Below, one piece after another: positions 21,861 through 50,454 of a DNA stretch of 59,051 bases (the first letter of the stretch is position 1; the number at the start of each line of letters is the position of its first letter). The position numbers and the translations under genes are program-made. This DNA comes from Opitutia bacterium Tous-C4FEB (GTDB lineage Bacteria > Verrucomicrobiota > Verrucomicrobiia > Opitutales > Opitutaceae). The stretch lies in NCBI GenBank assembly GCA_002304445.1, contig NEVA01000020.1:1-59051 (forward strand), given 5' to 3'. A model generated the notes under the pieces. It was not told the origin of the DNA. It worked only from the letters and a program-made list of their open reading frames with translations, and made no database searches.

Positions 21861-23375
21861 ATGAACTACCCCCGCCTCTTTTCCCTCCTTCGCCCTCTCG
21901 CTTTTTCCCTCCTCCTCTCCCTCGCCCTTTCCGCCGCAACCGCGACTGCCGCCACACCCGCGAAGCGCCCGCCCAACATCGTCTTCTTCCTCGCCGACGA
22001 CCTCGGCCGCCAAGACCTCGGCAGCTACGGCAGCACGTTCTACGAGACCCCGCACCTCGACCGCCTCGCCCGCGAGGGCGCGCGCTTCACCGATGCCTAC
22101 GCCGCCTGCCCCGTCTGCTCCCCCACGCGCGCCAGCGTCCTCACCGGCCAGTGGCCCCAGCGCACCGGCATCACCGACTACATCGGTGCCCCGCAATCCG
22201 CCGCGTGGAAACGCAACACCCCGCTCCTCCCCGCCGACTACACCGACCGCCTCGCCCTCGACGCGCCCACGCTCGCCAAATCCCTAAAAACCGCCGGCTA
22301 CGCCACGTTCTTCGCCGGCAAATGGCACCTCGGCCCCGCGGGCTGGTGGCCCGAAAATCAGGGCTTTGATCATAACTTTGGTGGCATCGACAAGGGTGGC
22401 CCCTACGGCGGAAAACAATACTTCTCCCCCTACGGTAACCCCCGCCTGACCGACGGCCCGCCCGGCGAACACCTCGAAGACCGGCTCGCCACCGAGGCCG
22501 GCAAATTCATGGCCGACCACAAAGACCGCCCCTTCCTCATCTACTTCCCGTTCTACTCCGTTCACACGCCGCTCATGACCCGGCCCGAGCTGAAAAAGAA
22601 ATACGAAGACAAACGCGCCCGCCTCGCGCTCACCGAGAAATGGGGCCGCGAAGCACCGCGCGACGTTCGCCTCACCCAAGCCCACGCCGTTTACGCCGGC
22701 ATGGTCGAAACCATGGACCTCGCCGTCGGCCAGATCCTCGCCCAGCTCGACGCCCTCGGCCTCGCCGAAAACACGATCGTGATCTTCACCAGTGACAACG
22801 GCGGCCTCTCCACCAGCGAAGGCTCGCCCACCTCCAATCTACCACTCCGCGCCGGCAAAGGCTGGATGTATGAAGGCGGCATCCGCGAACCGCTCATCGT
22901 GCGCTGGCCCGGCGTCGCGCGGCCCGGCTCCGTCATCACCGCGGCCGTGAGCAGCCCCGATTTCTTCCCCACCTTCCTCGCCGCCGCCGGCGCGAAGCCC
23001 GCTCCCGGCCAGATTCTCGACGGCATCGACCTCAAGCCCATTTTGCTCGGCGCCGCCGCCCCCGATCGCGCGCTCTTCTGGCACTACCCGCACTATGGCA
23101 ACCAAGGCGGTGCCCCCGCCGCCGCCGTCCGCCGCGGCCCCTGGAAACTCATCCACTGGTTTGAAGGCGACCGCTTCGAACTCTTCAACGTCGATACCGA
23201 CCTCGCCGAAAGCACCGACCTCGCCGCCCGCGAACCCGCCCGCGTCGCAGCCCTCCGCACCGAGCTCGCCGCGTGGCAAAAAAATGTCGGCGCCAAATTC
23301 CCCACGCCCAACCCCGCCTACGACCCCGCCAAACCAAACGGCCGCGAAGCCCCCCGCCCCGCCGCGAAAAAATAG
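21861..23375 (+). CDS. Secreted arylsulfatase A-type sulfatase
   Basis: Sulfatase of 504 residues with a signal peptide rich in Leu/Ser (FSLLRPLAFSLLLSLALSAA). It carries FFLADDLGRQDLGSYG (metal), the formylglycine Cys86 in VCSPTRASVLTG, AGKWHLGPAGWWPENQGFD and FTSDNGG. The sequence CSPTRAS...GQWPQRTGITD resembles S1_16-type enzymes. A GTG 18 bases upstream is in frame; the ATG is preferred. It is divergent from the toxin-antitoxin pair and the last of the three clustered sulfatases. Confidence 0.92.
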   Translation: MNYPRLFSLLRPLAFSLLLSLALSAATATAATPAKRPPNIVFFLADDLGRQDLGSYGSTFYETPHLDRLAREGARFTDAYAACPVCSPTRASVLTGQWPQRTGITDYIGAPQSAAWKRNTPLLPADYTDRLALDAPTLAKSLKTAGYATFFAGKWHLGPAGWWPENQGFDHNFGGIDKGGPYGGKQYFSPYGNPRLTDGPPGEHLEDRLATEAGKFMADHKDRPFLIYFPFYSVHTPLMTRPELKKKYEDKRARLALTEKWGREAPRDVRLTQAHAVYAGMVETMDLAVGQILAQLDALGLAENTIVIFTSDNGGLSTSEGSPTSNLPLRAGKGWMYEGGIREPLIVRWPGVARPGSVITAAVSSPDFFPTFLAAAGAKPAPGQILDGIDLKPILLGAAAPDRALFWHYPHYGNQGGAPAAAVRRGPWKLIHWFEGDRFELFNVDTDLAESTDLAAREPARVAALRTELAAWQKNVGAKFPTPNPAYDPAKPNGREAPRPAAKK

Positions 23376-31072: not shown

Positions 31073-32722
31073 ATGAATCCACCCCGCTCCCGCCCCGCCA
31101 TGGTCACGCTCTCTTTCTCCCCCTCTCTCCTTCTCGCCCTCTTTCTCTCCCTCCTTCTTCCGCTCTCCGCTTTCGCCGCGACTTCGGCGGTCCCCGCGGC
31201 GCCCGCGCCCGCCACGGCCGCGACTCCGCCCAACATCCTCTTCGTCATCGCCGACGACTGGGGCCCGCACGCCGGCGCTTATGGCACGCCCTGGGTCAAG
31301 ACGCCCGCCTTCGACCGCGTCGCCCGTGACGGCATTCTGTTTCAAAACGCCTACACGCCCAACGCCAAGTGCGCCCCTTCCCGCGCCGCCATCCTCACCG
31401 GCCGCAATTCCTGGCAACTTAAGGAAGCCGCCAACCACCTCTGTTTTTTTCCTGTCGAATTCAAGGGCTGGGGCGAGGCTCTCGCCGAAAACGGCTGGAC
31501 CGTCGGCCACACCGGCAAGGGCTGGGGCCCCGGCGTGGCCAAAGACTTCAAAGGCCAAGCCCGCGAGCTCACCGGTAAAACCTTCAACGCCCGCAAACAA
31601 AAATCCGCCACTGCCGAGATCAGCGAAAACAACTACTCCGCCAACTTCGACGACTTCCTCGCCGCCGCTCCCACCGGCAAACCGTGGGCCTTTTGGGCCG
31701 GCTCCCTCGAACCGCACCGCGGCTATGAATTCGGCTCCGGCCTTAAAAAGGGCGGCAAGAAACTCTCCGATATCGACCGCGTCCCCGCCTTCTGGCCCGA
31801 CCACCCCACCGTCCGCACCGACATCCTCGACTACGCCTACGAGGTCGAGAGCCTAGATGCCCACCTCGGCCGCATGTTGGCCTTGCTCGAGCAACGCGGC
31901 CTCCTCGCCAACACGCTCATCGTCGTCACTTCCGATCACGGTCCGCCCTTCCCCCGCGGCAAAGGCGGCGCGTACGCGTTCTCCAACCACGTCCCGTTCG
32001 CCGTCATGTGGCCCGCCGGCATCGCCGGCCACGGCCGCACCGTCACCGATTTCGTGAGCTTCGTCGACCTCGCGCCCACCTTCTTCGATGTCGCCGGCCT
32101 CCCTTGGGAAAAAACCGGCCTCGCCCCATCCCCCGGCCGCAGCCTCACCCCGATCTTTCGCACCCCGCGCTCGGGCCAGATCGACCCGGCCCGCGACCAC
32201 GTCCTCATCGGCATGGAGCGCCACGACATCGGTCGCCCCGGCGATGTCGGTTATCCCATCCGCGGCATCGTGACCGCCGACTCGCTCTACCTCGAAAACT
32301 ATGAGCCCATGCGCTGGCCCGCGTGCAATCCCGAGACAGGCTACCTCAACGTCGACGGCAGCCCGACCAAGACGCTCATCCTCGAAGCCCGCCGCCAGAA
32401 TCCCGCCGACCCGTTTTGGGCGCTCTGCTTCGGCCGCCGGCCCGCGATTGAGTTCTACAATCTCATGACCGACCGCGACTGCGTAAAAAACCTCGCCACC
32501 GCGACCGAGACCGCCACCCGCCGCCTCGTGCTGAAGACCCGGATGGAAGCCGAACTCAAGGCCCAGGGCGATCCGCGCATGTCCGGCCAAGGCTCCGTCT
32601 TCGACCGCTACCCGCACTCCAACGCCGCCAACGTAAACTTCTACGAACGCTTCATGCGCGGCGAAAAAGTCAAAGCCGGTTGGGTCAACCCCACCGATTT
32701 TGAACCCGCCCCGCTCGACTAG
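31073..32722 (+). CDS. Secreted type I sulfatase with GKGWGPG active-site motif
   Basis: Sulfatase of 549 residues from the ATG at 31073 (an ATG at 31100 would give 540). The signal peptide is long and Leu/Ser-rich ([20 protein letters not shown]). Motifs are [15 protein letters not shown] (metal), the formylglycine Cys in [22 protein letters not shown] and [11 protein letters not shown]; the C-terminus has [13 protein letters not shown]. It belongs with the sulfatase at 19360. The open frame reaches back to 30272, but that part reads as a shadow of the LamG gene. The 221-base gap before it holds nothing recognisable. Confidence 0.91.
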
Positions 32723-32909: not shown

Positions 32910-34316
32910 ATGGACCCATTTCTTCTGCTGTCGATCGGCATCGTCATCGTCGTCGGAGGCATCGTTTTTCTAAAACTCCACGCGTTCGTCGCCCTGTTCG
33001 CCGCCGCAATTGTCGTCTCGTCGCTGACCCCGCGCGCCACGATCGAACAGGCCGTGCTCGCCCAAAAACGCCCTGCCGCCGAGGCGAAAGCCCGCGCCGA
33101 CGAATCCCTCGGCGCAAAAATCGCCCATAAATTCGGCGGCACCTGCACCAATCTCGGCGTCCTCATCGCCATGGCTTCCATCGTCGGCGTCTGCCTGCTG
33201 CACAGCGGCGGCGCCGACCGCATCGTGCGCTCGACGCTCGGTCTGTTCGGCGAGAAACGGTCGCCGTTCGTCTTCGCCACCAGCGGGCTCGTGCTCGGCG
33301 TGCCGGTGTTCTTCGACACCGTGTTTCTCCTGCTCATTCCGCTCGCGCGCGCCATGGCCACACGCACCGGCAAGGACTACCTGCTCTACGTGCTCGCGAT
33401 CGCCGTCGGCACCACAATGACCCACTCTCTCGTGCCGCCGACGCCCGGTCCGCTCTTCGCCGCCAACGCCCTCGGCATCGACATCGGCACCATGATTCTC
33501 GCCGGCCTGCTGCTCAGCACGTTCACCGCGAGTGTGGGTCTCATGTATGCCTTTTGGGCCAACCGCCGCTGGCCCATCGCCGTCCGCGCACCGTCCGACC
33601 AAGGCGTCGCGGCCCCCGTCGCCGAGCGATCCGACCACGAATTGCCCCCGCTCTGGCTCGCGCTCGCCCCCATCGTTCTCCCGGTGATTTTGATTTCCGG
33701 TTCGACCATCGCCGACCTCTACAAACTGCCGCCACAACTGAACCACCTGATCGACACCTTCGGTCATCCCAACATCGCGCTCGCCCTCGCCGCCGCCATC
33801 GGCCTCATCACCGTCGCCACGCGTCCCGGCCGCGACCCCAAAGCTGTGAAGGACACCGTCCAATCCTCCCTCGCCGATGCGGGCATGATCATCCTCATCA
33901 CGGCGGCCGGCGGCGTCTTCGGCGGCGTGCTCCAGGAGACGGGTGTCGGCGAACGCATCCAGGGCCTCGCCCGCGAATATCGCATCGGCGTGTTGCCGCT
34001 CGCGTTTCTCGTCACCGCGCTCATCCGCACCGCCCAAGGTTCCGCCACCGTCGCGATGGTCACGAGCGTCGGCATCGTCGGCGCGTTTGCCACGCCGGAG
34101 ACCCTCGGCTGTCACCCGGTCTACCTCGCCCTCACGATCGGCTGCGCCTCCAAACTCGTGCCGTGGATGAACGACAGCGGTTTCTGGGTTGTTTCGAAAA
34201 CCGCCGGCCTCACCGAGCGCGAAACTCTGCGCACGATGTCCGTGATGTTTTCGATCATGGGCACCGTCGGCTTTCTCGCCGTGATGGTGGCTGCGAAGTT
34301 TTTCCCATTCGTCTGA
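32910..34316 (+). CDS. GntP-family gluconate/aldonate:H+ symporter
   Basis: Inner-membrane permease of 468 residues with about 12-14 hydrophobic segments. GntP hallmarks are GVPVFFDTVFLLLIPLA, THSLVPPTPGPLFAANAL, AAGGVFGGVLQETGVG, RTAQGSATVAMVT and KLVPWMNDSGFW. The family carries gluconate and other sugar acids. In E. coli the GntP-type gene yjhF stands next to yjhG; here too a YjhG-type dehydratase follows, so D-xylonate or a related aldonate is the likely cargo. The leader is C/T-rich with no Shine-Dalgarno motif. Confidence 0.92.
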   Translation: MDPFLLLSIGIVIVVGGIVFLKLHAFVALFAAAIVVSSLTPRATIEQAVLAQKRPAAEAKARADESLGAKIAHKFGGTCTNLGVLIAMASIVGVCLLHSGGADRIVRSTLGLFGEKRSPFVFATSGLVLGVPVFFDTVFLLLIPLARAMATRTGKDYLLYVLAIAVGTTMTHSLVPPTPGPLFAANALGIDIGTMILAGLLLSTFTASVGLMYAFWANRRWPIAVRAPSDQGVAAPVAERSDHELPPLWLALAPIVLPVILISGSTIADLYKLPPQLNHLIDTFGHPNIALALAAAIGLITVATRPGRDPKAVKDTVQSSLADAGMIILITAAGGVFGGVLQETGVGERIQGLAREYRIGVLPLAFLVTALIRTAQGSATVAMVTSVGIVGAFATPETLGCHPVYLALTIGCASKLVPWMNDSGFWVVSKTAGLTERETLRTMSVMFSIMGTVGFLAVMVAAKFFPFV

Positions 34317-34427: not shown

Positions 34428-35072
34428 ATGAAAAACCTCGTCCGCTCTCTCGTCTCCCTCGCCCTCCTCGGCTCCGCCCTCGTCGCCGCTCCCGCCGCCC
34501 AGCCGGCGTGGAAGGCCCTCTTCAACGGCAAAAACCTCGACGGCTGGCGCAACCCTTACACTTGGGGCGAATCCAAAGTCGTCGGTGACGAGGTCCACCT
34601 CATCGCCGACAAGAAATTTTTCCTCGTCACCGAGAAGTCCTATTCCGACTTCGTGTTCGAGGTGGAAATCCTCCTGCCGGCCGGCAAGGCCAACAGCGGC
34701 GTGATGTTCCGCGCGCAAGTTCAGCCCAATAAAGTCACCGGCTACCAAGCCGAGGTCGACGGCGACCCGGTCCGCCTCTGGTCCGGCGGCCTCTACGACG
34801 AGGGTCGCCGCATGTGGTTCGCCAGCCCGATCAAGGGCGACGCTGCCAGCGAGAAAGCCTTCCGCGACCGCGCCGGCTCCTCGTTCAAGCGCGACGGCTG
34901 GAACACCTACCGCATCACCTGCCAGGGCCAAAGTCTCAAGATCGAGGTCAACGGCGTCGTCACCACCGACATCAAGGACTCCATGGACGCCAGCGGCCCC
35001 ATCGGCCTCCAGCACCACGGCGAAAAAGGCCAGACCTACAAATTCCGCAACGCGCGCATCCGCGAGCTCTGA
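34428..35072 (+). CDS. Secreted DUF1080 protein (3-keto-disaccharide hydrolase-like)
   Basis: Protein of 214 residues from the ATG at 34428 with a signal peptide ([19 protein letters not shown]). The DUF1080 jelly-roll is complete: [13 protein letters not shown] at the start, [21 protein letters not shown], the loop [27 protein letters not shown] and [12 protein letters not shown]...FRNARIREL at the end. Some members act on 3-keto-glycosides; the specificity here is unknown. It is 111 bases after the permease and ends before a strong terminator, so it may be the last gene of the permease transcript. Confidence 0.88.
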
Positions 35073-35376: not shown

Positions 35377-37350
35377 ATGCCGCATCCCGCTTTCCTCGAT
35401 TCCGCCGATCCCTCGATCTACACCCTGCGCACCACCGCGCCCGGCCCCGCCGGCAAACTCCCGCTCACCGCACAGATGCTGCGCAACGCCACCAGCGGGC
35501 ACATCTTCGGCCTGACGCAGAACGCCGGCATGGGCTGGGACCCGCGCAAACTGCTCGGCAAAGAATTTCTCATTCTCAGCACCCAAGGCGGCATCCGCGC
35601 CACCGACGGCACGCCCGTCGCCCTCGGTTACCACACCGGTCACTGGGAAGTCGGCCTGCTCATGGAGGAAGCCGCGCGCACGTTCTCCGCCCACGGGGCG
35701 ACTCCGTTTGCCGGCTACGTCAGCGATCCGTGCGACGGTCGTTCCAACGGCACGCCCGCGATGCTCGACAGCCTGCCCTACCGCAACGATGCCGCCACCG
35801 TCTTCCGCCGTCTCATCCGTTCGCTCCCCACCTGTCGCGGCGTCGTCGGCGTCGCCACCTGCGACAAGGGTCTGCCCGCGATGATGATGGCCCTCGCCGG
35901 CACGAAACATCTCGCGAGCGTCCTCGTCCCCGGGGGCACCACCCTCCGCTCCGAAGAGGGCGAAGACACCGCCAAGGTCCAGACCCTCGCCGTCCGTTTC
36001 GCCCAAGAGGAAATCACTCTCGATTACGCCGCCGAGATGGGCTGCCGCGCCTGCGGTTCCCCCGGCGGCGGCTGCCAGTTCATGGGCACCGCCGCGACGT
36101 CCCAAGTCGTCGGCGAGGCCCTCGGCATGTCGCTCCCCCACTCCGCGCTCAGTCCCTCCGGCGCCCCGATCTGGCGCGACATGGCCCGCCGCTCCGCTCT
36201 CGCCGTCATGGCCATGGAGCAAAAGGGCCTCACCCTCGCCTCGATTCTCACCGAGGATTCATTGCACAACGCCATGGTTGCCCACGCCGCCGTCGGCGGC
36301 TCGACCAACCTCGTCGTCCACGTCCCCGCCATCGCCCACGCCGCCGGCCTGCGCCGCCCCACCGTCGACGACTGGACGCGCATCAACGCCCTCGTCCCCC
36401 GCCTCGTCGACGTCCTCCCCAACGGCCCGACGCACTTCGCCACCGTGCAGGTCTTCCTCGCCGGCGGCGTCCCCGAGCTGATGCTCCACCTGCGCAACCT
36501 CGGCCTGCTCAAACTCGACGCCCTCACCGTCACCGGCCAATCCCTCGGCGAAAATCTCGCGTGGTGGGAAAAATCCGAGCGCCGCGCCCGTCTCCGCGAA
36601 AAACTCCGCGAGCTCGACCGCGTCGATCCCGACCGCGTGATCCTCGCGCCGCCCGCCGCCCGCGCCATCGGCATGACCAGCACCGTTTCGTTCCTCCGCG
36701 GCAACCTCGCCCCTGAAGGCGCCCTCGTTAAGAGCACCGCCATCGATCCCACGCTCCTCGATGCCGACGGCGTTTTTGCCCACGAAGGCCCCGCCCGCGT
36801 CTTCGGCTCCGAGGCCGCCGCGATGGTCGCGATCAAATCCCGCGGCCCCGACGCTCTCCGCCAAGGCGAGATCGTCGTCCTCATCGGGCTCGGTCCCGCT
36901 GCCGGCATGCCCGAGACTTACCAAGTCACCTCCGCCCTCAAATATCTGCCGAAGGCCAAGGGTGTCGTGCTCCTCACTGACGGCCGTTTCTCCGGCGTCT
37001 CCACCGGTCCGTGCATCGGCCACATGAGTCCTGAGTCCGCCGCCGGCGGCCCCCTCGGCAAACTCCGCGACGGCGACGTTCTCCGCGTGCGCATCGACAC
37101 CCGCAAACTCGAGGGCTCGGTCAACTACATCGGCGCGCACGCCACACCCGAACTTGCCGCCGCCGAGCTCGCCGCGCGCCCAGTGAGCGAAAAACTCATC
37201 CCCAATCCCGCCGTGCCCGCCGACACCGATCTCTGGGCCGCCCTCCAGAGCGTGAGCGGTGGCAGCTGGGGCGGCTGCGTCTACGACGCTCCCCGCATCA
37301 AAGAACTCCTCGCCGTCGGTCTCGCCCACTCTTCCACTCAAAAAAAATGA
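35377..37350 (+). CDS. yjhG: YjhG/YagF-family D-xylonate dehydratase
   Basis: Iron-sulfur dehydratase of the IlvD/Edd superfamily, 657 residues from the ATG at 35377, the size of E. coli YjhG (about 655). It removes water from D-xylonate to give 2-keto-3-deoxy-D-xylonate in the cytoplasm. Similarity to YjhG as I remember it runs end to end: [31 protein letters not shown] (Cys119), [14 protein letters not shown] (Cys162), [14 protein letters not shown] (Cys223, 226, 233), [47 protein letters not shown] and [11 protein letters not shown]. The frame opens to 35164, which is not used. The stop overlaps the next ATG by four bases. Confidence 0.93.
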
Positions 37351-38168
37351 TCCTCCTCCACGCCGCCTCCGATCACCTCGTCGCCGTCTCCGCCGGCCGC
37401 ACCGTCCGCCTCGATCTCACGCTCGACGCGCTCTTCGTCGCCGCCGATCCCGCCGCACTCCTGCGCTCGCTGATCGCCGCCGCGCCCACGGCCACGTTGC
37501 CCGCGCACCCGCGCGCGCCGCTGCAATCCCAGGAAGTTTGGGCCGCCGGCGTCACGTATTTCCGCAGCATGACGGCCCGCAAAGAGGAATCCAAAGACTC
37601 CGGCGGCGGCACGTTCTACGACCGCGTCTACCACGCCGACCGCCCCGAAATCTTTTTCAAATCCACGCCGCACCGTGTCGCCGCCCCCGGCACACCCGTC
37701 CGCATCCGCGCCGATTCCAAGTGGAACGTCCCCGAGCCCGAGCTCACCCTCGCGATCAACTCCGCCGGAAAAATCTTCGGTTACACCATCGGCAACGACA
37801 TGAGTTCGCGCGACATCGAGGGCGAAAACCCCCTCTACCTCCCGCAGGCCAAAGTCTACGACCGCTCCGCCGCTCTCGGCCCCGCCCTCCTCGTCACCGA
37901 CGAACCGCTCCCGCCCACCACCGAAATCTCCATCGAGATCCGCCGCGCCGGCGCCGCCGTTTTCTCCGGCGCGACGACGATCAGCCAGATCAAGCGCACC
38001 TTCGTCTCGCTCGCGGAATTCCTCTTTCGCGACAACTCCTTCCCGCACGGCTGCTACCTCATGACCGGCACCGGCGTCGTCCCGCCCGACAATTTTACCC
38101 TGCACTCCGGTGACGAGGTCCGCATCACCATCGCGCCCATCGGCACGCTCATCAACTCCATCGCCTAG
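37347..38168 (+). CDS. FAH-family 2-keto-3-deoxy-sugar-acid dehydratase
   Basis: Fumarylacetoacetate-hydrolase-fold enzyme of 273 residues. Signatures are [64 protein letters not shown] with its metal-binding acidic residues (EPEL), and [14 protein letters not shown]. After a xylonate dehydratase and before a semialdehyde dehydrogenase the expected reaction is dehydration of 2-keto-3-deoxy-D-xylonate to alpha-ketoglutarate semialdehyde (KdaD/XylX role in the Weimberg pathway). The ATG overlaps the dehydratase stop (ATGA) after a run of eight As, so the genes are translationally coupled. A hydrolase role is possible but fits the context less well. Confidence 0.86.
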
Positions 38169-38219: not shown

Positions 38220-39818
38220 ATGTCCTCCTCTCTCCTCGGCCTCAGCCTTCTCGCCGGCCAAACCGGTGCCACCGGCGGCACCGTCTTCCATGCCGTCAAT
38301 CCCACCACCGGCGAAAACCTCGCGCCCGATTTCCACGAGGCCTCTCTCGCCGAGGTCAACTCCGCCCTTAACGCCGCGGCCGCTGCCTTTGAAATCTACC
38401 GCGCCGTCCCCGCCGAGACTCGCGCCCGCTTGCTCGACACCATCGCCGCCGAGATCGAAGCCCTCGGCGACGCTCTCCTCCAACGCGCCCACGCCGAGAC
38501 CGGCCTCCCGCTCCCGCGCCTCACCGGCGAGCGCGCCCGCACCTGCGGCCAGCTCCGCCTCTTCGCCGCCGTCGTGCGCGAGGGCTCGTGGGTCGACGCC
38601 CGCATCGACACCGCGTTGCCCGATCGTCAACCGCTCCCGCGGCCCGATTTGCGCCGCATGTTGATCGCCCTCGGCCCCGTCGTCGTTTTCGGCTCCAGCA
38701 ATTTTCCTTTCGCGTTCTCCGTCGCCGGCGGCGACACCGCTTCGGCCCTCGCCGCCGGCTGTCCCGTCGTCGTGAAGGCCCACCGCGCCCACGCCGGCAC
38801 CGCCGAGCTGGTCGGCCACGCCGTCGTCCGCGCCGTCGCCGCCTGCGGCCTACCCGCCGGCCTGTTTTCCCTCGTGCACGGCGGCGGCTCCACCGTCGGC
38901 ATTGCGATGGTCAAGCATCCCGCCGTCACCGCCGTCGGCTTCACCGGCTCGCACGCCGCCGGCCGCGCGCTCTGCGACGCTGCCGCCTCGCGCCCGCATC
39001 CGATCCCCGTCTTCGCCGAGATGAGCAGCCTCAATCCCGTCTTCCTCCTGCCCGGCGCCCTCCGCGATCGCGGCCCCGCCATCGCCACCGGCCTGTGCGG
39101 TTCGTTCACGCTCGGCGTCGGCCAGTTCTGCACGAAGCCCGGTCTCGTCTTCGCTCTCCGCGGCGCCGACACCTCAGCCTTTCTCGAAAAACTTTCCGCC
39201 GCCGTCCAGGGCGCCGCCTGCGCCACGATGCTTACGCCCGGCATTCGCTCCGCGTTTTTGGAGAACCGCGCCGCCGTCACCGGGCTCGCCGGCGTCACGT
39301 TGCTCGCCGCCGCGTCCGCCGCGCCCGACGCGAAAAAAACCGAAGCCCAGCCCAGCGTCGCCGTCACCACCGCGCAAAATTTCCTCGCTCACCCCGCGCT
39401 CGCCACCGAGGCGTTCGGCCCGTTCACCCTCGTCGTCACCGCGGAAACCGCCGCCGAGCTCACCGCCTGCGCGCGCGCCCTCGAGGGCCAGCTCACGGCC
39501 ACGCTCCACGGCAACACCGATGACCTCGCCTCCGCCGCGCCGCTCGTGGCCCTGCTCGAACAAAAGGCCGGCCGTCTCGTCCTCAACGCGTTTCCCACCG
39601 GCGTCGAAGTCAGCCCGGCGATGAACCACGGCGGCCCGTCGCCCGCCGCGAGCGACACCCGCTTCACCTCCGTTGGCACCGCCGCGCTCCTGCGTTTCGC
39701 GCGCCCGATCTGCTACCAGAGCTTCCCCGCCGCGCTGCTCCCCGCGGCGTTGCAGGACGCCAACCCTCTCGGCCTCATGCGCCTCGTCGACGGTCAGCGC
39801 ACCACGGCGGCCCGATAG
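38220..39818 (+). CDS. Aldehyde dehydrogenase, alpha-ketoglutaric semialdehyde type
   Basis: NAD(P)-dependent aldehyde dehydrogenase of 532 residues. Catalytic residues are Asn161 (GSSNFPFAFSVAGGDT), Glu267 (FAEMSSLNPVF) and Cys304 (GQFCTKPG). The segments ASALAAGCPVVVKAH and EMSSLNPVFLLPGAL are those of the KGSADH group that oxidises 2,5-dioxopentanoate to 2-oxoglutarate. This completes the Weimberg route started by the two upstream dehydratases. The gap from the FAH gene is 51 bases, almost all C and T; no Shine-Dalgarno motif is seen. The fusion gene starts 11 bases after its stop. Confidence 0.9.
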   Translation: MSSSLLGLSLLAGQTGATGGTVFHAVNPTTGENLAPDFHEASLAEVNSALNAAAAAFEIYRAVPAETRARLLDTIAAEIEALGDALLQRAHAETGLPLPRLTGERARTCGQLRLFAAVVREGSWVDARIDTALPDRQPLPRPDLRRMLIALGPVVVFGSSNFPFAFSVAGGDTASALAAGCPVVVKAHRAHAGTAELVGHAVVRAVAACGLPAGLFSLVHGGGSTVGIAMVKHPAVTAVGFTGSHAAGRALCDAAASRPHPIPVFAEMSSLNPVFLLPGALRDRGPAIATGLCGSFTLGVGQFCTKPGLVFALRGADTSAFLEKLSAAVQGAACATMLTPGIRSAFLENRAAVTGLAGVTLLAAASAAPDAKKTEAQPSVAVTTAQNFLAHPALATEAFGPFTLVVTAETAAELTACARALEGQLTATLHGNTDDLASAAPLVALLEQKAGRLVLNAFPTGVEVSPAMNHGGPSPAASDTRFTSVGTAALLRFARPICYQSFPAALLPAALQDANPLGLMRLVDGQRTTAAR

Positions 39819-39829
39819 CCTTTGCCAAA

Positions 39830-42283
39830 ATGTTGCGCCGCTCCCTCGCCCTCGTTCTCGCCTTTTCCGCCACCGCAACCGCTGCCGAACCCGCCCCGCG
39901 CTCACCCGAAACCATCGTCGCCACCTTCTGTACCGCCTGCCACGGCGCGCAGCTCACCGGCGAACGCGCCCCCAGCCTGCTCGACGACCGCTGGCTCCAC
40001 GGCAGTGACGACGCCTCCGTGCTGCGCAGCATCGCCGAGGGCTTTCCGCTCCTCGGGATGCCCGGTTACGGCGCCGTCCTTTCCACCACCGAGCAACGCG
40101 ATCTCCTCGCCTACCTCCGCCGTCAGGCCGCCGAGTTCGCCGCCGGTCGCATCGCCCCGCCACCCCCGCCGCCCGCCGAGCCAGTCGAGAGTCAGCTTCA
40201 CTCGTTTCGCATCGAAACCCTCGTCGAGGGTCTCGAACGCCCGTGGGGTTTCGCCTTTCTCCCCGACGGCCGCGTCCTCGTCACCGAGCGCCCCGGGCGC
40301 CTCCGCATCATTGAAAACGGCCGGCTCCTCCCCGCGCCGGTCGCCGGACTCCCCGAGATCTTCGTCAAACAGGACGGCGGCCTGCTCGACCTTATCGCCC
40401 ACCCCGATTTCGCGAACAACGGCTGGATCTATCTCGCCTACACCGAAGCCGGCCCGGTCGAGCGCACCTCCATGGCCGTCGTCGTCCGCGGCCGCATCTG
40501 GGAAAACCGCTGGACCGATCAGGAAACTATTTTCCGCGCCGACCCCAAATTTTACACCACCGACACCTCGCACTACGGTTGCCGCTTTCTCTTCGATCCC
40601 ACCGGCCATCTCTTTTTCACCATCGGCGACCGCGGCGACGCCGCCCAGGCCCAAGACCTCTCCAGCCCTTTCGGCAAAATCCTCCGCGTCACCGCCGATG
40701 GCCGCATCCCGCCCGACAACCCGTTCGTCAACCGCCCCGATGCCCTCGGCTCGGTTTGGAGTTACGGCCATCGCCACGTGCAGGGGCTGAGTTATCACCC
40801 CGTCACCGGGAAACTCTGGACCACCGAGCACGGCCCCGTCGGCGGCGACGAACTCAATTTCATCGAGCCCGGCCGCAACTACGGCTGGCCCTTGATCTCC
40901 ACCGGTGTCGATCCCACCCGCGTCTACACCGACGCCCGCCCCGGCCTCACCGCGCCCGCCGCGCAATGGACGCCCAGTATCGCGCCTTCCGGCATCGCCT
41001 TCTACACCGGCGACAAATTTCCCTCGTGGAAAAACCAATTGCTCGTCGCCGGTCTCGCCGGCCAACAGCTCCGCCGCGTCGAGACCGAGGGCGACCGCGT
41101 CGTCCGCCAAGAAGTTCTGTTCAAAGGCTTCGGCCGCATCCGCACCGTCACCATCCGACCCGACGGCCTGCCCTACGTGCTCTTCGACGGCACACCCGGC
41201 CGCTTCGCCCGGCTCGTCCCCGTCGCCACCGACCCTGCGCTCGCCGCCGCCCGGCCCGCCGTCCGCCGCGGCATCTTCGGCCGCACCGCCGACGGCATCG
41301 AAGTCGAGAGCTACACCCTCACCAACCGCGCCGGCGCCACCGCGCAGATCATCACTCTTGGCGCCATCATCGCCGATCTCCGCGTCCCCGATCGCTCCGG
41401 CGTGATGTCCGGCGTCGTCGAGAAAATCACCCCCAGCGCCGAGGGCTTTGCAAAAGGTTTCAAAAGCCCGGCCGCCGTCATCGGCCGTTTCGCCAACCGG
41501 ATCGCCAACGCCCGCTTCACCCTCGACGGACGCACCGTCGAGGTCACCCCCAACGCCGGCATCCACCACATCCACGGCGGCCGCCGCGGCTTCGACAAAA
41601 AAATCTGGCTCGCCGAGCCGCCCGCCCCCACGGGGCCCGCGCGCGTGCGCCTCTCGCTCGTGAGCCCTGCCGGCGAGGAAGGCTACCCCGGCACCCTCAA
41701 CGTCTCGGTCACTTACACGCTCACCGAGGCCAACACCCTCCGCCTCGATTACGAGGCGACGACCGATGCGCCCACGCCGGTCAACCTCACCAACCACGCC
41801 TACTTCAACCTCGGTTCCGGCGGCGACGTCACCGACTACGAACTCACCCTCGCCGCCGCCCGCTTCACCGTCGCTGACGACCGCCGCTTCCCCACCGGCG
41901 AAATCGCGCCCGTGCGCGGCACGCCCCTCGATTTCACCACGCCCACCCGCCTCGCGGCCCGCGCCGCCCAGCTCGGCCCCCGCCCGATCTACGATCACAA
42001 CTTCGTGATCGACCGTCCCGCCGGCGACGCCTCGCTCCGTTTTGCCGCGCGGGTCTACGACGCCGCGAGCGGCCGCCAAATGGAGACGTGGACCACCGAA
42101 CCCGGCCTGCAACTTTACACCAGCGTGCTCAGCCTCACGCCCGTGATCGGCCGCGTCGGCTTCTTCTGCCTTGAGACCCAGCACTTCCCCGACTCCGTCA
42201 ACCACCCCCACTTCCCCTCGACGATCCTCCGCCCCGGGGACACGTTCCGCTCCACCACCGAGTATCGCTTTACGACGCGCTGA
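39830..42283 (+). CDS. Exported fusion: cytochrome c - PQQ aldose dehydrogenase - aldose 1-epimerase
   Basis: Single protein of 817 residues with three domains behind a signal peptide (1-19). A class I cytochrome c domain (about 24-105) has CTACH (Cys34, Cys37, His38) and the likely axial Met77 in GMPGY. After a Pro-rich linker (108-118) comes a soluble-type PQQ sugar dehydrogenase propeller (about 124-465) like YliI/Asd: LERPWGFAFLPDGRVLVTER, GHRHVQGLSYHP and TTEHGPVGGDELNF. From about 480 follows a full GalM-type mutarotase with GIHHIHGG, His656 in NLTNHAYFNL, Asp722 and Glu782 in CLETQHFPD. It should equilibrate sugar anomers, oxidise the aldose at C1 and pass electrons to its own haem, in the periplasm. 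It is the last gene of the Weimberg-type operon. Confidence 0.92.
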   Translation: MLRRSLALVLAFSATATAAEPAPRSPETIVATFCTACHGAQLTGERAPSLLDDRWLHGSDDASVLRSIAEGFPLLGMPGYGAVLSTTEQRDLLAYLRRQAAEFAAGRIAPPPPPPAEPVESQLHSFRIETLVEGLERPWGFAFLPDGRVLVTERPGRLRIIENGRLLPAPVAGLPEIFVKQDGGLLDLIAHPDFANNGWIYLAYTEAGPVERTSMAVVVRGRIWENRWTDQETIFRADPKFYTTDTSHYGCRFLFDPTGHLFFTIGDRGDAAQAQDLSSPFGKILRVTADGRIPPDNPFVNRPDALGSVWSYGHRHVQGLSYHPVTGKLWTTEHGPVGGDELNFIEPGRNYGWPLISTGVDPTRVYTDARPGLTAPAAQWTPSIAPSGIAFYTGDKFPSWKNQLLVAGLAGQQLRRVETEGDRVVRQEVLFKGFGRIRTVTIRPDGLPYVLFDGTPGRFARLVPVATDPALAAARPAVRRGIFGRTADGIEVESYTLTNRAGATAQIITLGAIIADLRVPDRSGVMSGVVEKITPSAEGFAKGFKSPAAVIGRFANRIANARFTLDGRTVEVTPNAGIHHIHGGRRGFDKKIWLAEPPAPTGPARVRLSLVSPAGEEGYPGTLNVSVTYTLTEANTLRLDYEATTDAPTPVNLTNHAYFNLGSGGDVTDYELTLAAARFTVADDRRFPTGEIAPVRGTPLDFTTPTRLAARAAQLGPRPIYDHNFVIDRPAGDASLRFAARVYDAASGRQMETWTTEPGLQLYTSVLSLTPVIGRVGFFCLETQHFPDSVNHPHFPSTILRPGDTFRSTTEYRFTTR

Positions 42284-42811: not shown

Positions 42812-45800
42812 ATGACAACCCGCTCATCTCCCATCTGCACTGCAATCGCCTGCCTTGCCCTCGTCTTCACGTCCACCGTCTGCTCCGCTGCGGCTGCCAC
42901 GACTGCATTGGCGGCGCAGGCTACCGGCGCGATCTCCGGCCGGGTCCAAAATGTCGCCACCGGCCAGTATCTGAACAACGCCCGTGTCACCGTGAAAGGC
43001 ACCGAAAGCGTCGCCTTCACCGACCAAACCGGCAGCTATCGCCTGACCGGTTTGCCCGCCGGCTCGACCGTTCTCGAGGTGTTCTTCACCGGCCTCGATC
43101 CACTTCAACTTCCGGTGACGATCCGCGCCGGCGAAGTCATCGAGCAAGACGTCAGCCTGACGAGCGCCACGCGCTACGGCACGGACGCTTCCGGCACGGT
43201 CAAACTCGACTCGTTCGTCGTCACCACCGGCCGTGAGACCGACGGCGCCGCCATCGCCATCAACGAGCAGCGCTTCGCCCCGAACATCAAGAACGTCGTC
43301 GCGGCCGATGCGCTCGGCGATGTCATGGACGGGAATGTTGGCGAGTTCCTCAAATTCATGCCCGGTGTCACCGCCGAGTATGACCGCGAATCCGGCGGCT
43401 CCGTCGCCTCGGTGTCTGTGCGCGGCTTTCCCACCGCGCAGGCCGTGGTCTCAGGCGACGGCCTCCAGATGGCCAATACCGGCAACCCCCAAGGCTCGTC
43501 GCGCGTCTTCCAGTTCACCCAGGTTTCCATCAACAACATCTCGCGCATCGAAGTGACCAAGGTGCCGACACCCTCGACCCCCGCCGACTCCATGGCCGGC
43601 TCGATCGACATGGTGAGCAAGAGCGCCTTCGAGCGCAAAGACGCCCAGCTCCGCTACAGCGTGGGGATTTCGGGCAATCACCGCACGGCTAGCGTCCAAA
43701 AAGTCCCGCACACCACCGACGAGCGCGTCTACAAGGTGCTACCGAGTTTCACCTTCGACTACACTCTGCCCGTCACCAAAAACTTCGGCCTCGTCGTCAC
43801 GGGTCAGAGCCAGAATCGCTTCATCGAGATGCAGTGGGTGCCGCGCGGATTTGGTACCACCGCGACCGGCGTTTCCGGCGCCTCGGTCAGCCGGCCCTAC
43901 CTGCAATCCTTTCAGCTGAACAGCGTCCCGCGCGCCAACACCCGCAACGCCGTCGGTCTGAAAGCGGATTGGCGCGCCACGCCCAATGGCGTCCTCTCGC
44001 TCAACCTGGAACGCAGCCGCTTCGTCTCGGACCGCTCCAATGCCTCCATTTTGCTCTCTACCGGCACCAACGGCGTGCCCAATCCCGCCACCGGCTTGCC
44101 GCTCACCTTCGGCGATAACTTCACGTCCGGCGCCACCGGGCGCGGGGCCATCACAATCGGCAATGGCGGTGCCGGCGTCCGCCAGCAACTCGACACCGAA
44201 GCCGTCGGCCTGCGCTACCGTTTCGACGATGGCAACTGGCGCGTCGTCGCCGCCCTCGGCCAGTCGAATTCCTCCGGCGGCTACCAAGACACCATCCACG
44301 GCCGCTTCCGCGCCCTCGTGATCACCAACCGCATCCCCGTCCGCGTGAGTTTCGCCCAGATCGACGACGTCCGCCCGCAATCGATCCAGGTCTTCGACAA
44401 CTCCGACCGCTCCTTCGACATCACCAATCTCGACAACTACCAGGTGAACTCCGCCACCTCCACCCCGCGCGTCATCCGCGACAGTCTTGCCAATGGGAAA
44501 CTGGATGTGCGCAAGACCTTGCCGATGTTTTCGTTTCCCGCCGCGATTCAGGTCGGCGGACTCCGCCGCGTGCAGGTCCGCGACGTGCGCCGCGAGAGCA
44601 TCAACTGGAACTACAACGGTCCCGATGGAAATCCCGCGACGCCCGATTCGCCGTCGCTCTTCCGCAATACCGTCTACGTGAACCAGAGCGAAAACTTCGG
44701 TTTCAAAAACTTGCCGTTCGTCTCCACGGCCAACGCCCTCCGCGCGTTCCAATCCAACCCGACGCTCTTCAGCAAGACCACGGCGCAGACGACCGCCGAG
44801 GAACTTTTCCGCCTGAATAATTCCGAGCGGCTGCAAGAAGCCGTGACCGCCGGCTACGTCCAAGCCGAGCTCGGCCTCTTCCAAAACCGCCTCAAAGTCC
44901 TCACCGGCGTGCGCTACGAACGGACCGACGCCGACGGCCAAGGCATCCGCACCGACGCCAACGCGGTCTGGCTCCGCAACGCCGACGGTTCCTTCGCTCG
45001 CACCGCCGACGGCGCCCGTATCCGCCGCCCCGAGGCCGGCGCCGTCGGCTCGTTGCAAGAGCTCGCCGTCACCCGCCGGGAGCGCGGCACCAAAGCCTCA
45101 CGCACCTACGACGGCTATTACCCGAGCCTGCACCTCACCTACCAGATCCGCGAAAATCTCCTCGTTCGTTTGGCCTACGCCAAGACCTACGGCCGCCCCG
45201 ATTTCGCCTCCATCGTCCCGAATACCACCGTCGACGAAACCGATTTCGGCAACGCCACGCCCGACCCCAACCAAATCCCCGGCCGCATCACGACGCGCAA
45301 TACCGGCCTGCGCCCATGGACCGGCGATAACTACGATCTGTCCGTCGAATACTACACGCCTCAAGGCGGCGTTTTCAGCGCCGGTGCCTTTCGCAAGGAA
45401 ATCAGCAACTTCTTCGGCAACGCCGTGAAGGTCGCCACCGCCGCCGATCTTGAGCTGCTCGAACTCGACCCCCGCTACGTTGGCTGGCAGATCACGACCG
45501 CCTTCAACGTTCCCGGCACCGCCCGCGTCGATGGCGTGGAGTTCAACGCCCGCCACTCGCTCCGGGCCCTCGGTTCGTGGGGTCGCCATTTCAGCGCCTT
45601 CGCCAACGGCACAAAACTCAGACTGCAGGGCGGCACCGACTCCGACTTCAGCGGCTTTATCCCGGAGAGCGCCAACTGGGGCCTCGATTTCAAAAGCAAG
45701 CGTTTCAGCGTAATGGCCAATTGGAACCACCGCGGCCAGCAACGCCTCGGCCGCATCGCCGCCCTCGGTACCGATGCCTACGAATACGCCAAGGCGCGCA

Positions 45801-45988
45801 CCCGCCTCGACCTCAACGTCGACTACCAGCTACGTTCCAATTTCTTTCTCTACGCGAGCGCCCAAAACATCTTCGACGTGCCGGAGACCCTCCTGCGCTT
45901 CGGTTCGCAAACCCCCGGCTACGCCCGCGGCTACCAAGTCCTGACCACCGGCGTCCAACTCACGCTCGGCGTGAAGGGCACATTCTGA
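42812..45988 (+). CDS. TonB-dependent receptor with N-terminal carboxypeptidase-regulatory-like domain
   Basis: Receptor of 1058 residues. After a signal peptide (CTAIACLALVFTSTVCSAAA) comes a CarboxypepD_reg-like beta-sandwich (about 38-110: GAISGRVQNVATGQYLNNAR, TDQTGSYRLTGLPAG), then the region VKLDSFVVTTGRETDGAA, a plug with VSVRGFPTAQAVVSGDG and RIEVTKVPTPSTPADSMAG, and a barrel ending LTLGVKGTF. This architecture is that of the Xanthomonas/Caulobacter-type glycan receptors and differs from the two other receptors here. It follows the oxidative sugar operon after 528 bases, so it may import its substrate; ligand unknown. Confidence 0.92.
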   Translation: MTTRSSPICTAIACLALVFTSTVCSAAAATTALAAQATGAISGRVQNVATGQYLNNARVTVKGTESVAFTDQTGSYRLTGLPAGSTVLEVFFTGLDPLQLPVTIRAGEVIEQDVSLTSATRYGTDASGTVKLDSFVVTTGRETDGAAIAINEQRFAPNIKNVVAADALGDVMDGNVGEFLKFMPGVTAEYDRESGGSVASVSVRGFPTAQAVVSGDGLQMANTGNPQGSSRVFQFTQVSINNISRIEVTKVPTPSTPADSMAGSIDMVSKSAFERKDAQLRYSVGISGNHRTASVQKVPHTTDERVYKVLPSFTFDYTLPVTKNFGLVVTGQSQNRFIEMQWVPRGFGTTATGVSGASVSRPYLQSFQLNSVPRANTRNAVGLKADWRATPNGVLSLNLERSRFVSDRSNASILLSTGTNGVPNPATGLPLTFGDNFTSGATGRGAITIGNGGAGVRQQLDTEAVGLRYRFDDGNWRVVAALGQSNSSGGYQDTIHGRFRALVITNRIPVRVSFAQIDDVRPQSIQVFDNSDRSFDITNLDNYQVNSATSTPRVIRDSLANGKLDVRKTLPMFSFPAAIQVGGLRRVQVRDVRRESINWNYNGPDGNPATPDSPSLFRNTVYVNQSENFGFKNLPFVSTANALRAFQSNPTLFSKTTAQTTAEELFRLNNSERLQEAVTAGYVQAELGLFQNRLKVLTGVRYERTDADGQGIRTDANAVWLRNADGSFARTADGARIRRPEAGAVGSLQELAVTRRERGTKASRTYDGYYPSLHLTYQIRENLLVRLAYAKTYGRPDFASIVPNTTVDETDFGNATPDPNQIPGRITTRNTGLRPWTGDNYDLSVEYYTPQGGVFSAGAFRKEISNFFGNAVKVATAADLELLELDPRYVGWQITTAFNVPGTARVDGVEFNARHSLRALGSWGRHFSAFANGTKLRLQGGTDSDFSGFIPESANWGLDFKSKRFSVMANWNHRGQQRLGRIAALGTDAYEYAKARTRLDLNVDYQLRSNFFLYASAQNIFDVPETLLRFGSQTPGYARGYQVLTTGVQLTLGVKGTF

Positions 45989-49269: not shown

Positions 49270-50454
49270 ATGATCGCTCGTCTCGCCGAAGCTCGAATCC
49301 GCGACCTGCTCGCGCGTTTTCCCGCCGTCGCCGTCTTGGGTCCGCGTCAGGTCGGCAAGACGACGCTGGCGCTCCGCCTCGCCGGGGCAACCGACGCCAC
49401 GTTTGCTTACTTGGATCTGGAGCTACCCTCGCACCGGGCCAAACTTTCCGACCCGGAACTCTACTTCAAAACGCAGGAAGACCGCTTGGTCATTCTGGAT
49501 GAAATCCAACGCGTGCCGGGGCTTTTCGAGATTCTGCGGGGCGTCATCGATGAGCGGCGCAGAAAGGGCCGCCGCAACGGTCATTTTCTGCTGCTCGGAT
49601 CGGCGTCGATCGAACTGCTCAAGCAGTCGTCCGAGACCCTGGCCGGGCGCATCGCCTATTCCGAACTCACGCCGCTGCTGGTGGAGGAAGCCGCCGCCAA
49701 AAAACGGACCGACCGGGATCGGCTGTGGTTGCGCGGCGGCTTCCCCGACTGCTTTCTGGCGCGGGACGATGCCGCGAGCGTCGAGTGGCGCGAGGAGTTC
49801 ATCGGCACCTATCTCGAGCGGGACATTCCTCTGCTCGGCCCGAAAATTCCGGCCGAAACGTTGCGCCGCTTCTGGACCATGCTGGCCCACGAACAAGGCA
49901 CGCTGCTCAACGCGGCCGCCGTCGCCGGCGCCATCGGCGTTAGCGGCCAGACCGTGGGACGCTATCTCGACCTCATGGTCGACCTGCTCCTCGTGCGCCG
50001 TTTGCAGCCTTGGGCAAAGAATGCCGGCAAGCGCTTGGTCCGTTCGCCCAAAATCTATGTGCGCGACAGCGGTTTGGTGCATGCCTTGCTCGGGCTCCGC
50101 GACCTTGACGCTGTGCTCGGTCATCCCGTGACCGGCGGAAGCTGGGAGGGCTTTGTGATCGAAAACCTGCTCGCCGCTGCGCCCGCCGGCACGCAAGCTT
50201 GGTTCTACCGGACCGCGGTCGGCGCCGAGATCGATCTCGTGCTGGAGATTCCGCCGAAGGGACGCTGGGCCATTGAAATCAAACGCTCCTCCGCGCCGGT
50301 GTTGGCCAAGGGATTTTATTTCGGCTGCGACGACATCAAGGCGACCAGACGAATCGTCGTCCACGCCGGCGAAGACTCGTATGGACTCGGTGACGGCGTC
50401 GAAGCGGTCTCGCTACCCGCGGCGCTGGCGACGTTGCGGGAGTGTTCTGAATAA
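49270..50454 (+). CDS. AAA-family ATPase with DUF4143 domain
   Basis: Protein of 394 residues from the ATG at 49270. The AAA_14 domain has a Walker A motif GPRQVGKTTLAL (19-30), Walker B VILDEIQRVPG and the sensor segment FLLLGSASIELLK. The DUF4143 part follows (YVRDSGLVHALLGL, GGSWEGFVIENLLAA) and ends in a nuclease-like core with GAEIDLVLEI and WAIEIKRSSAPVLAKGF (D-x-E-x-K pattern). The function of the family is not established. Unlike most genes here it has a purine-rich stretch AAGGA (49254-49258) before its ATG, which may point to a separate origin. Confidence 0.88.
   Translation: MIARLAEARIRDLLARFPAVAVLGPRQVGKTTLALRLAGATDATFAYLDLELPSHRAKLSDPELYFKTQEDRLVILDEIQRVPGLFEILRGVIDERRRKGRRNGHFLLLGSASIELLKQSSETLAGRIAYSELTPLLVEEAAAKKRTDRDRLWLRGGFPDCFLARDDAASVEWREEFIGTYLERDIPLLGPKIPAETLRRFWTMLAHEQGTLLNAAAVAGAIGVSGQTVGRYLDLMVDLLLVRRLQPWAKNAGKRLVRSPKIYVRDSGLVHALLGLRDLDAVLGHPVTGGSWEGFVIENLLAAAPAGTQAWFYRTAVGAEIDLVLEIPPKGRWAIEIKRSSAPVLAKGFYFGCDDIKATRRIVVHAGEDSYGLGDGVEAVSLPAALATLRECSE

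Follow-up and report, generated by a model that had tools for sequence, protein, structure and literature searches.

A predicted exported protein of an uncultured Opitutaceae bacterium joins cytochrome c, sugar dehydrogenase and mutarotase domains

In yeast Gal10 (1z45), a C-terminal mutarotase is joined to a sugar enzyme, UDP-galactose 4-epimerase, and in the fungal dehydrogenase CcPDH of Coprinopsis cinerea (AA8-AA12) the third domain is a carbohydrate-binding module. CcPDH is a naturally occurring quinohaemoprotein of three domains that oxidises sugars, with the cytochrome at its N terminus (PMC4332668, PMC6881789). That cytochrome binds haem b, and a mutarotase is lacking. Its PQQ propeller is less than 20% identical to bacterial aldose sugar dehydrogenases of the Asd type (PMC6881789). 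The E. coli YliI/Asd protein (2g8s) and its P. aeruginosa homologue (7cdy) are single-domain propellers. An aldose dehydrogenase has also been tethered to a haem acceptor by engineering, in a fusion of PaeASD with cytochrome b562 in which electrons pass from glucose to PQQ and on to the haem (PMC12011955). Mutarotases, whose catalytic residues are two His and one Glu, ease the anomer bottlenecks of anomer-specific sugar enzymes (PMC5902678). In the Weimberg pathway of Pseudomonas taiwanensis, xylose is oxidised in the periplasm and the product passes through GntP to XAD, KDXD and a semialdehyde dehydrogenase; the first step belongs to Gcd, which reduces ubiquinone, and the available sections of that paper mention no mutarotase fusion (PMC11252243).

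The gene described here lies in a stretch of 59,051 nucleotides from Opitutia bacterium Tous-C4FEB, referred to as the window, and it encodes haem c, propeller and mutarotase domains in one chain. The features of the gene and its neighbours are as follows.

32910..34316, + strand: GntP family permease
34428..35072, + strand: 3-keto-disaccharide hydrolase family protein (Pfam PF06439)
35377..37350, + strand: YjhG/YagF family D-xylonate dehydratase, above the curated cut-off (ATG start picked by script)
37347..38168, + strand: FAA-hydrolase-fold (FAHD) protein, closest solved relative 2q18
38220..39818, + strand: aldehyde dehydrogenase (ALDH), ending 11 bases upstream of the fusion
39830..42283, + strand: three-domain fusion gene, 817 aa (ORF call and Pfam search)
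39830..39886, + strand: apparent signal peptide, residues 1-19 (by eye from the translation)
39893..40117, + strand: cytochrome c domain, residues 22-96 (Pfam PF13442)
39929-39943, + strand: CTACH haem motif, C34-H38
40145..40195, + strand: proline-rich linker, residues 106-122 (translation)
40232..41209, + strand: GSDH / aldose sugar dehydrogenase propeller, residues 135-460 (Pfam and alignment)
41222..41281, + strand: short variable joint, residues 465-484, stop-free in all 13 aligned fusions
41309..42268, + strand: aldose 1-epimerase (mutarotase) domain, residues 494-813 (Pfam and alignment)
42812..45988, + strand: TonB-dependent receptor, downstream, its membership of the cluster uncertain

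A preliminary description had read the gene as one uninterrupted 817-codon fusion of a haem c domain with a CTACH motif, an Asd-type dehydrogenase and an aldose 1-epimerase, and this reading is borne out by a single frame running from ATG to TGA and by scores above the Pfam cut-offs for all three domains. At the N terminus, PF13442 matches with 33.7 bits (cut-off 27), while PF00034 reaches 19 bits, under its cut-off of 21.3. The CxxCH motif, the distal Met and the HMM match identify this domain, by sequence, as a class I cytochrome c, and M77, nearly invariant in the 16-row alignment, is the likely sixth haem ligand. At the C terminus, PF01263 (Aldose_epim) matches with 262 bits (cut-off 27), and H582, H656 and E782 align with the catalytic His, His and Glu positions of aldose 1-epimerases, in agreement with the two residues, His656 and Glu782, singled out earlier. 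All 14 fused GalM rows keep H582, H656 and D722; E782 is kept in 12, the remaining two being truncated. The domain scores 254.1 bits against the Leloir-pathway GalM equivalog TIGR02636, below the cut-off of 397.65, and is thus best regarded as a relative of Leloir GalM that fails the equivalog test.

The propeller matches PF07995 (GSDH) with 402.4 bits (cut-off 25) over model positions 1-331 of 332, and it scores 251 and 264 bits against 2g8s and 7cdy, respectively. Four residues, H248, R315, R436 and R438, are kept in 15/15 fused GSDH rows; aligned by eye, H248 corresponds to the catalytic His144 of sGDH and the Arg residues to those that bind PQQ (roles partly after PMC6881789). The Asn that stands beside the PQQ-binding Arg in relatives and bonds the O4 of PQQ, present in 2g8s and 7cdy, is His316 in the fusion, and His occupies this position in 15/15 fused rows and in 13 close two-domain rows, whereas the other 17 rows, including two paralogues from the window genome, keep Asn. 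In sGDH, Lys377 forms an ion pair with the C-7 carboxylate of PQQ; the nearest column of the alignment, 410, may be its counterpart, and there the residue of the fusions is A, G, M, I or V. By sequence, then, the propeller is assigned to the GSDH fold family, and with Asn replaced by His316 the assignment makes no claim to PQQ use. An AlphaFold2 model of the fusion (mean pLDDT 61.3) is confident in the propeller and mostly below 50 in the epimerase; built from 16 rows, only 4 of which span the epimerase, it is uninformative on domain geometry.

Two-domain cytochrome c-GSDH proteins, such as C5:33681 of the window genome and L062 of Novosphingobium piscinae, have the same haem c and propeller (42-60% identical) but lack the mutarotase domain; they are many in the phylum, with some in Acidobacteria and Alphaproteobacteria (best 80 of 556 matches in a contig scan), and no characterised member appeared among the literature matches listed. 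Gal10 aligns with residues 487-815 of the fusion at 91 bits and, unlike the fusion, has no redox domain. The PaeASD construct resembles the fusion in its tethered haem acceptor but is man-made, uses b562 and has no mutarotase (PMC12011955). Classification as an AA12/AA8 fungal pyranose dehydrogenase was considered and rejected, as the cytochrome here is of the haem c type (CxxCH) and the best matches of the propeller are Asd types. No characterised enzyme combining haem c, a sugar dehydrogenase and a mutarotase was found among the open-access literature matches listed, and the three-part combination, as the preliminary description had supposed, appears to be undescribed.

The domain order is present in at least 15 of 252 genomes of the family, of which at least 12 have a complete fusion (the match starts near the N terminus, reaches the C terminus and meets no internal stop), these being lower bounds, since the fusion, two-domain, separate-pair and YjhG scans scored the 2-4 best candidates per genome. 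Three family fusions are broken, one (G606) by a single TAG and two (G498 and G502) at contig ends, and one further complete fusion, G985, comes from another order. The records L052, L053 and L054 were taken to be the same as G497, G499 and G206 and do not count as extra fusions; L067 was left out of the alignment because of a stop within its translation, and L116 (Silanimonas), a long match in the scan, proved to be two tandem GSDH genes. The complete family fusions share 59-95% identity, the upper value being that between the window and G010. It had been suggested that an assembly error at about 41,250-41,290, a site that the joint overlaps, might have run two genes together. An artefact of assembly or annotation might be suspected, as nearly all of the fused genomes are draft assemblies and each half also exists separately, but it is reduced to a negligible prospect by the complete fusions in the family and in a second order, and by a frame that is intact in all 13 aligned fusions. 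Purifying selection acts on all three domains: by Nei-Gojobori-type counting, each has a dN/dS of 0.04-0.29 in six closer pairs, and values are about 0.37-0.40 for the window genome against G006. The joint itself varies, and its dN/dS reaches 1.4 in one of the pairs.

In the window the gene order is GntP - YjhG - FAHD - ALDH - fusion. YjhG qualifies as a pentonate dehydratase, with 1037.4 bits against TIGR03432 (cut-off 808.15). The FAHD protein has as its best solved match 2q18, a 2-keto-3-deoxy-D-arabinonate dehydratase (188.9 bits), and stays under the NCBIfam cut-offs. The ALDH, with 1eyy and 3v4c as its closest solved relatives, is a candidate alpha-ketoglutaric semialdehyde dehydrogenase, that being its best NCBIfam model at 101.5 of 770 bits, although it falls far under every NCBIfam cut-off. 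With the pathway of P. taiwanensis (PMC11252243) this run would share oxidation in the periplasm, import by GntP, two dehydratases (the second putative here) and a semialdehyde dehydrogenase (a candidate here). The run reads as a periplasmic Weimberg pathway missing only its first enzyme, with the fusion at its end. Pentonate-degradation genes beside the fusion, on which the preliminary description is silent, suggest its substrate. Four sulfatases and TonB receptors are also encoded in the window.

The wider association is less regular. G010 has the order YjhG-FAHD-ALDH-fusion, and it and the window genome (G000) are the only two in which pathway genes adjoin the fusion, none being present on the stretches read for G985 and the remaining 13 fusions of the family; GntP beside the cluster was found in the window and on no other family stretch read. 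A YjhG match at E<=1e-100 is present in 15/15 fused family genomes (11 above the cut-off, 4 fragments) vs 103/237 others, a co-occurrence with a Fisher p of 7e-6 by genome and only 0.06 by genus, and YjhG is also present in G985. Around YjhG in eight fused genomes, ALDH is near in three, FAHD alone in one (at a contig end), and YjhG stands alone in four. The gene called next to the fusion in G608 encodes an alpha-L-fucosidase.

Separate-gene arrangements also exist. Three genomes of the Novosphingobium family carry the cytochrome-dehydrogenase and an exported mutarotase as separate genes with an ATGA overlap, the pair being present in the named strain Novosphingobium piscinae KCTC 42194, and in five sister species the ALDH known from the window is followed by an exported mutarotase on its own. 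Of these five sisters, G012 alone shows YjhG-FAHD next to its ALDH and mutarotase genes, and G003 and G005 gave no YjhG match at E<=1e-100. The trees suggest that the lone mutarotase came from a fused ancestor. They excluded segments of fewer than 250 aligned residues (thus the truncated GalM of G502 is absent from the GalM trees), the second GalM tree left out L004, a copy of G012, and the p-values of the tree groups are optimistic, as the groups were defined with the first tree already in view.

The reading favoured here, with a probability of roughly 0.55, is that the fusion works in the periplasm as a quinohaem aldose dehydrogenase that carries a mutarotase of its own, and that it catalyses the first step of a Weimberg-type pentose pathway there. 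Its epimerase domain would keep turning the anomer that does not react into the one that does, the sugar being an aldopentose and most probably D-xylose; the propeller would oxidise C1 to the lactone, and the electrons would travel by way of the tethered haem c to the respiratory chain. The lactone would open to the aldonate, GntP would take this up, and YjhG, the FAHD protein and the ALDH would convert it to alpha-ketoglutarate. PQQ, the presumed cofactor, would have to be scavenged by the host. Two contexts support a coupled function, namely the pathway genes adjoining the fusion and the overlapping pair of separate genes. The idea in the preliminary description that mutarotase, dehydrogenase and haem cooperate is supported by these and by conservation, but its term "self-contained" is too strong, as neither PqqC nor PqqE turned up in the hosts, and the enzyme would still depend on lactone hydrolysis, on an importer for the aldonate and on a partner to accept its electrons. 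A xylose isomerase in the host, pathway genes that adjoin just two of the fusions, the low NCBIfam scores of the ALDH, the PQQ-synthesis markers that were not found and His316 count against the favoured reading.

The same tethered enzyme might instead serve another aldose, such as L-arabinose, D-arabinose, L-fucose, galactose, glucose or a sugar from sulfated polysaccharides, with the D-xylonate genes as occasional neighbours. This would fit the 14/16 fusions that lie away from pathway genes on the stretches read, the fucosidase of G608, the sulfatases and TonB receptors of the window, and the likeness of FAHD to a D-arabinonate-pathway enzyme; it is nevertheless an unlikely, if serious, alternative, given the fusion directly after the pathway genes in the window and G010, the solitary mutarotase that follows this ALDH in the five sisters, and YjhG in every fused genome searched for it. 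More improbable still is that the propeller works without PQQ, as a binding domain or with another quinone or a metal cofactor, and that the protein is no PQQ dehydrogenase. The His at the PQQ contact would be in keeping with this, as would the searches with two PQQ-synthesis models: PqqC gave no match in 27 family genomes, and no positive control matched either, while PqqE had none above the cut-off in 12 Opitutaceae genomes, the stronger evidence of the two, as two other bacteria did match. However, the catalytic His248 and three Arg are kept, PQQ scavenging is common in bacteria, including five Verrucomicrobia in which PqqU, an importer, occurs without genes for PQQ synthesis (PMC12124388), and E. 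coli, which does not make PQQ, has YliI (PMC13088180). The favoured reading also has in its support the cytochrome c assembly family PF01578, found in 6/6 hosts tested.

Compatible with the favoured quinohaem dehydrogenase, and quite conceivable though at somewhat less than even odds, is that fusion brings joint export and equal dosage only, with enzymes that act independently and no kinetic gain. The overlapping separate genes in three genomes, the lone exported mutarotases of the sisters and the short, variable joint all agree with this; nothing direct speaks against it, although the fusion has been retained across five genera and two orders. A bolder and rather doubtful extension is that the fusion is a kinetically coupled machine, in which the mutarotase hands the productive anomer directly to the neighbouring propeller and the haem draws off the electrons within one chain, giving full conversion faster than separate domains would. 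On this view it arose once, came to lie behind pentonate genes in one lineage and was later split in the sisters, leaving the exported mutarotase, with hosts living on the PQQ of their neighbours.

If the quinohaem dehydrogenase reading is true, this would be, within the literature searched, the first natural sugar dehydrogenase to carry a mutarotase as well as the acceptor of its electrons. The versions that occur in nature, whether fused, split into overlapping genes or reduced to a lone mutarotase, could then serve to test whether mutarotation limits periplasmic sugar oxidation, and the fusion could provide a scaffold for anomer-blind, mediator-free sugar sensors. For uncultured Opitutaceae it would also indicate a pentose route that runs through the periplasm and depends on PQQ from others.

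The frame at 39830-42283 on the forward strand runs for 817 codons with no interruption, as the preliminary description had stated, and the assignment made there of a haem c domain, a sugar dehydrogenase and an aldose epimerase is borne out by Pfam, where each domain scores over its curated cut-off:

residues 22-96, cytochrome domain
residues 135-460, GSDH domain (Asd-type sugar dehydrogenase propeller)
residues 494-813, aldose epimerase domain (GalM, mutarotase)

Relatives of solved structure agree with Pfam: the N terminus matches CcoP-type cytochromes, the propeller matches 7cdy from P. aeruginosa and 2g8s from E. coli, and the epimerase matches 4rnl and 1snz. The N terminus carries an apparent signal peptide (judged by eye), and in close pairs dN/dS is low across all three domains; an AlphaFold2 model could not position the domains relative to each other. 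The fused GSDH domain retains the catalytic His and the PQQ Arg residues (roles of these and of a neighbouring PQQ-contacting Asn as described in PMC6881789). The Asn adjacent to the PQQ-contacting Arg is replaced by His316 in 15/15 fused rows and in 13 close two-domain rows, the other 17 GSDH rows of the alignment having Asn at this position. Among the epimerase residues, H582, H656 and D722 are present in 14/14 fused rows and E782 in 12/14, the remaining two being truncated; His656 and Glu782 are the pair named at the outset.

The best reading of this architecture is that the mutarotase domain would supply the reactive anomer, the propeller would oxidise C1 of the sugar, and haem c would accept the electrons. 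There are precedents: in an engineered PaeASD-cytochrome b562, the haem receives electrons that PQQ has taken from glucose (PMC12011955), and the glucose dehydrogenase of Bacillus megaterium accepts only beta-D-glucose, a kind of bottleneck that mutarotases remove (PMC5902678). The parts and their logic are known, but the combination is not: consistent with the preliminary description, the matches listed from the open-access literature, a coverage that excludes subscription papers and preprints, include no enzyme with the cytochrome-dehydrogenase-mutarotase architecture.

The genes that precede the fusion, all on its strand, are as follows:

32910-34316, forward, GntP permease
34428-35072, forward, 3-keto-disaccharide hydrolase family protein, between the permease and the dehydratase
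35377-37350, forward, YjhG/YagF family D-xylonate dehydratase (YjhG)
37347-38168, forward, FAA-hydrolase-fold protein (FAHD), closest among solved structures to 2-keto-3-deoxy-D-arabinonate dehydratase
38220-39818, forward, aldehyde dehydrogenase (ALDH), ending 11 bases before the fusion

Together with a permease for aldonate uptake, the set YjhG-FAHD-ALDH would cover the part of the Weimberg pathway that comes after sugar oxidation, and the fusion would provide the absent first step. A comparable order of events is described for Pseudomonas taiwanensis, where periplasmic sugar oxidation and xylonate uptake by GntP are followed by XAD, KDXD and a semialdehyde dehydrogenase (PMC11252243). The host also encodes a xylose isomerase over cut-off (G000:C23:138358-139656), and therefore an oxidative pentose route would be a second one and not the sole one. 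Upstream of the pentonate genes lie four sulfatase genes (17673-19223, 19408-21036, 21861-23375 and 31073-32722) with TonB-receptor plug proteins close by, a stretch that looks like a sulfated-polysaccharide utilisation region. Downstream of the fusion, an AAA_14/DUF4143 ATPase is encoded at 49270-50454, relatives of which (31-32% identity) adjoin YjhG in three genomes of genus g52 (loci L196, L197 and L201), and a 421-aa ORF at 50701-51966 matches alpha-L-fucosidase over residues 1-42 only, and is perhaps a broken or misframed gene.

With regard to cofactors, a cytochrome c assembly family is present in 6/6 hosts tested. PqqE was over cut-off in 0/12 genomes of the Opitutaceae and in none of G616-G618, the positives being two other bacteria (G615 and G619), and PqqC gave no match in 27 Opitutaceae genomes, nor in any control genome. 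The host therefore probably scavenges PQQ, or uses something else; scavenging has been proposed for five Verrucomicrobia that have PqqU without synthesis genes (PMC12124388).

The preliminary description had suggested looking for the same domain order in other genomes, and it does recur: the fusion was found in 3/57 relatives of the window genome (39 contigs, 3.76 Mb), these being the window's own, G010 (95% identity) and G006 (66%), in 15/252 Opitutaceae genomes spread over four genera, in 2/387 genomes of a phylum sample (the window's own and G206) and in 3/384 of a class sample (the same two and G985, of another order), all of which are lower bounds because only two to three candidates per genome were scored. 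Twelve of the 15 family fusions are complete, one (G606) has a single in-frame TAG, and two (G498 and G502) are cut by contig ends. Two-domain cytochrome-GSDH proteins, 42-60% identical, are frequent across the phylum and extend to other phyla; the window genome encodes two.

The order YjhG-FAHD-ALDH-fusion recurs in G010. In five sisters of the same genus (G012, G008, G005, G003 and G009) the gene immediately behind the same ALDH encodes an epimerase (63-65% identity) that bears an apparent signal peptide of its own. Among these, FAHD and YjhG adjoin the ALDH-epimerase pair only in G012; they are absent from the 6-7 kb read beyond the ALDH in G005, G003 and G009, and the G008 contig ends within the ALDH. 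In G009 both genes are located on a different contig, and the YjhG search at E<=1e-100 gave nothing in G003 or G005. In the stretches read, pathway genes do not adjoin the 13 other family fusions or that of G985, and GntP turned up in none of the searched stretches of the family other than the window. Around YjhG in eight of the other fused genomes, three (G503, G497 and G504) show an ALDH nearby, G006 shows FAHD at a contig end, and YjhG is alone in four (G608, G597, G985 and G206). YjhG matches (E<=1e-100) occur in 15/15 fused family genomes (11 over cut-off and four fragments) and in 103/237 unfused ones, and G985 also has YjhG. This co-occurrence is in line with the proposed pathway, but correcting for relatedness leaves it weak, the Fisher p of 7e-6 by genome becoming 0.06 by genus (4/4 vs 25/49 overall).

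The origin of the fusion was approached through trees whose groups were named after the first tree had been seen. In the GalM trees, the five sisters' stand-alone epimerases nest inside the fused group; a fused-only GalM clade is rejected (p-AU 0.012 and 0.005 in two trees), and a clade of fused domains plus the five lone epimerases is not (p-AU 0.218 in the second tree). The fused GSDH domains as a single clade are likewise not rejected (0.404 and 0.418). These results fit a single fusion event after which the sisters, whose lone mutarotases may be products of gene fission, lost the cytochrome-dehydrogenase half. Repeated fusion is still conceivable in place of a single origin. Both domains of the G985 fusion (L187, 8710-11061) fall among those of the g52 fusions, with weak support in the case of GalM and better support in that of GSDH; this placement hints at either horizontal transfer or a binning error.

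Judging from gene order, a separate lineage couples the same two activities without fusion. In Novosphingobium piscinae (G616, locus L062) the ATG of an epimerase gene overlaps the stop codon of the cytochrome-GSDH gene before it (ATGA). Among 249 genomes searched from its family, six have an E<=1e-100 match covering the cytochrome part, and in three of these (G616, G836 and G786) the epimerase is adjacent with the identical four-base overlap and starts with an apparent signal peptide; the others (G729, G801 and G839) lack an epimerase within some 8 kb. Inspection of the translations by eye assigns the other genes of the L062 cluster to an IlvD/EDD-type dehydratase, an FAHD protein, an MFS transporter and SDRs. 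The entire cluster recurs in G786; near G836's pair, the genes found were limited to the MFS transporter and two SDRs.
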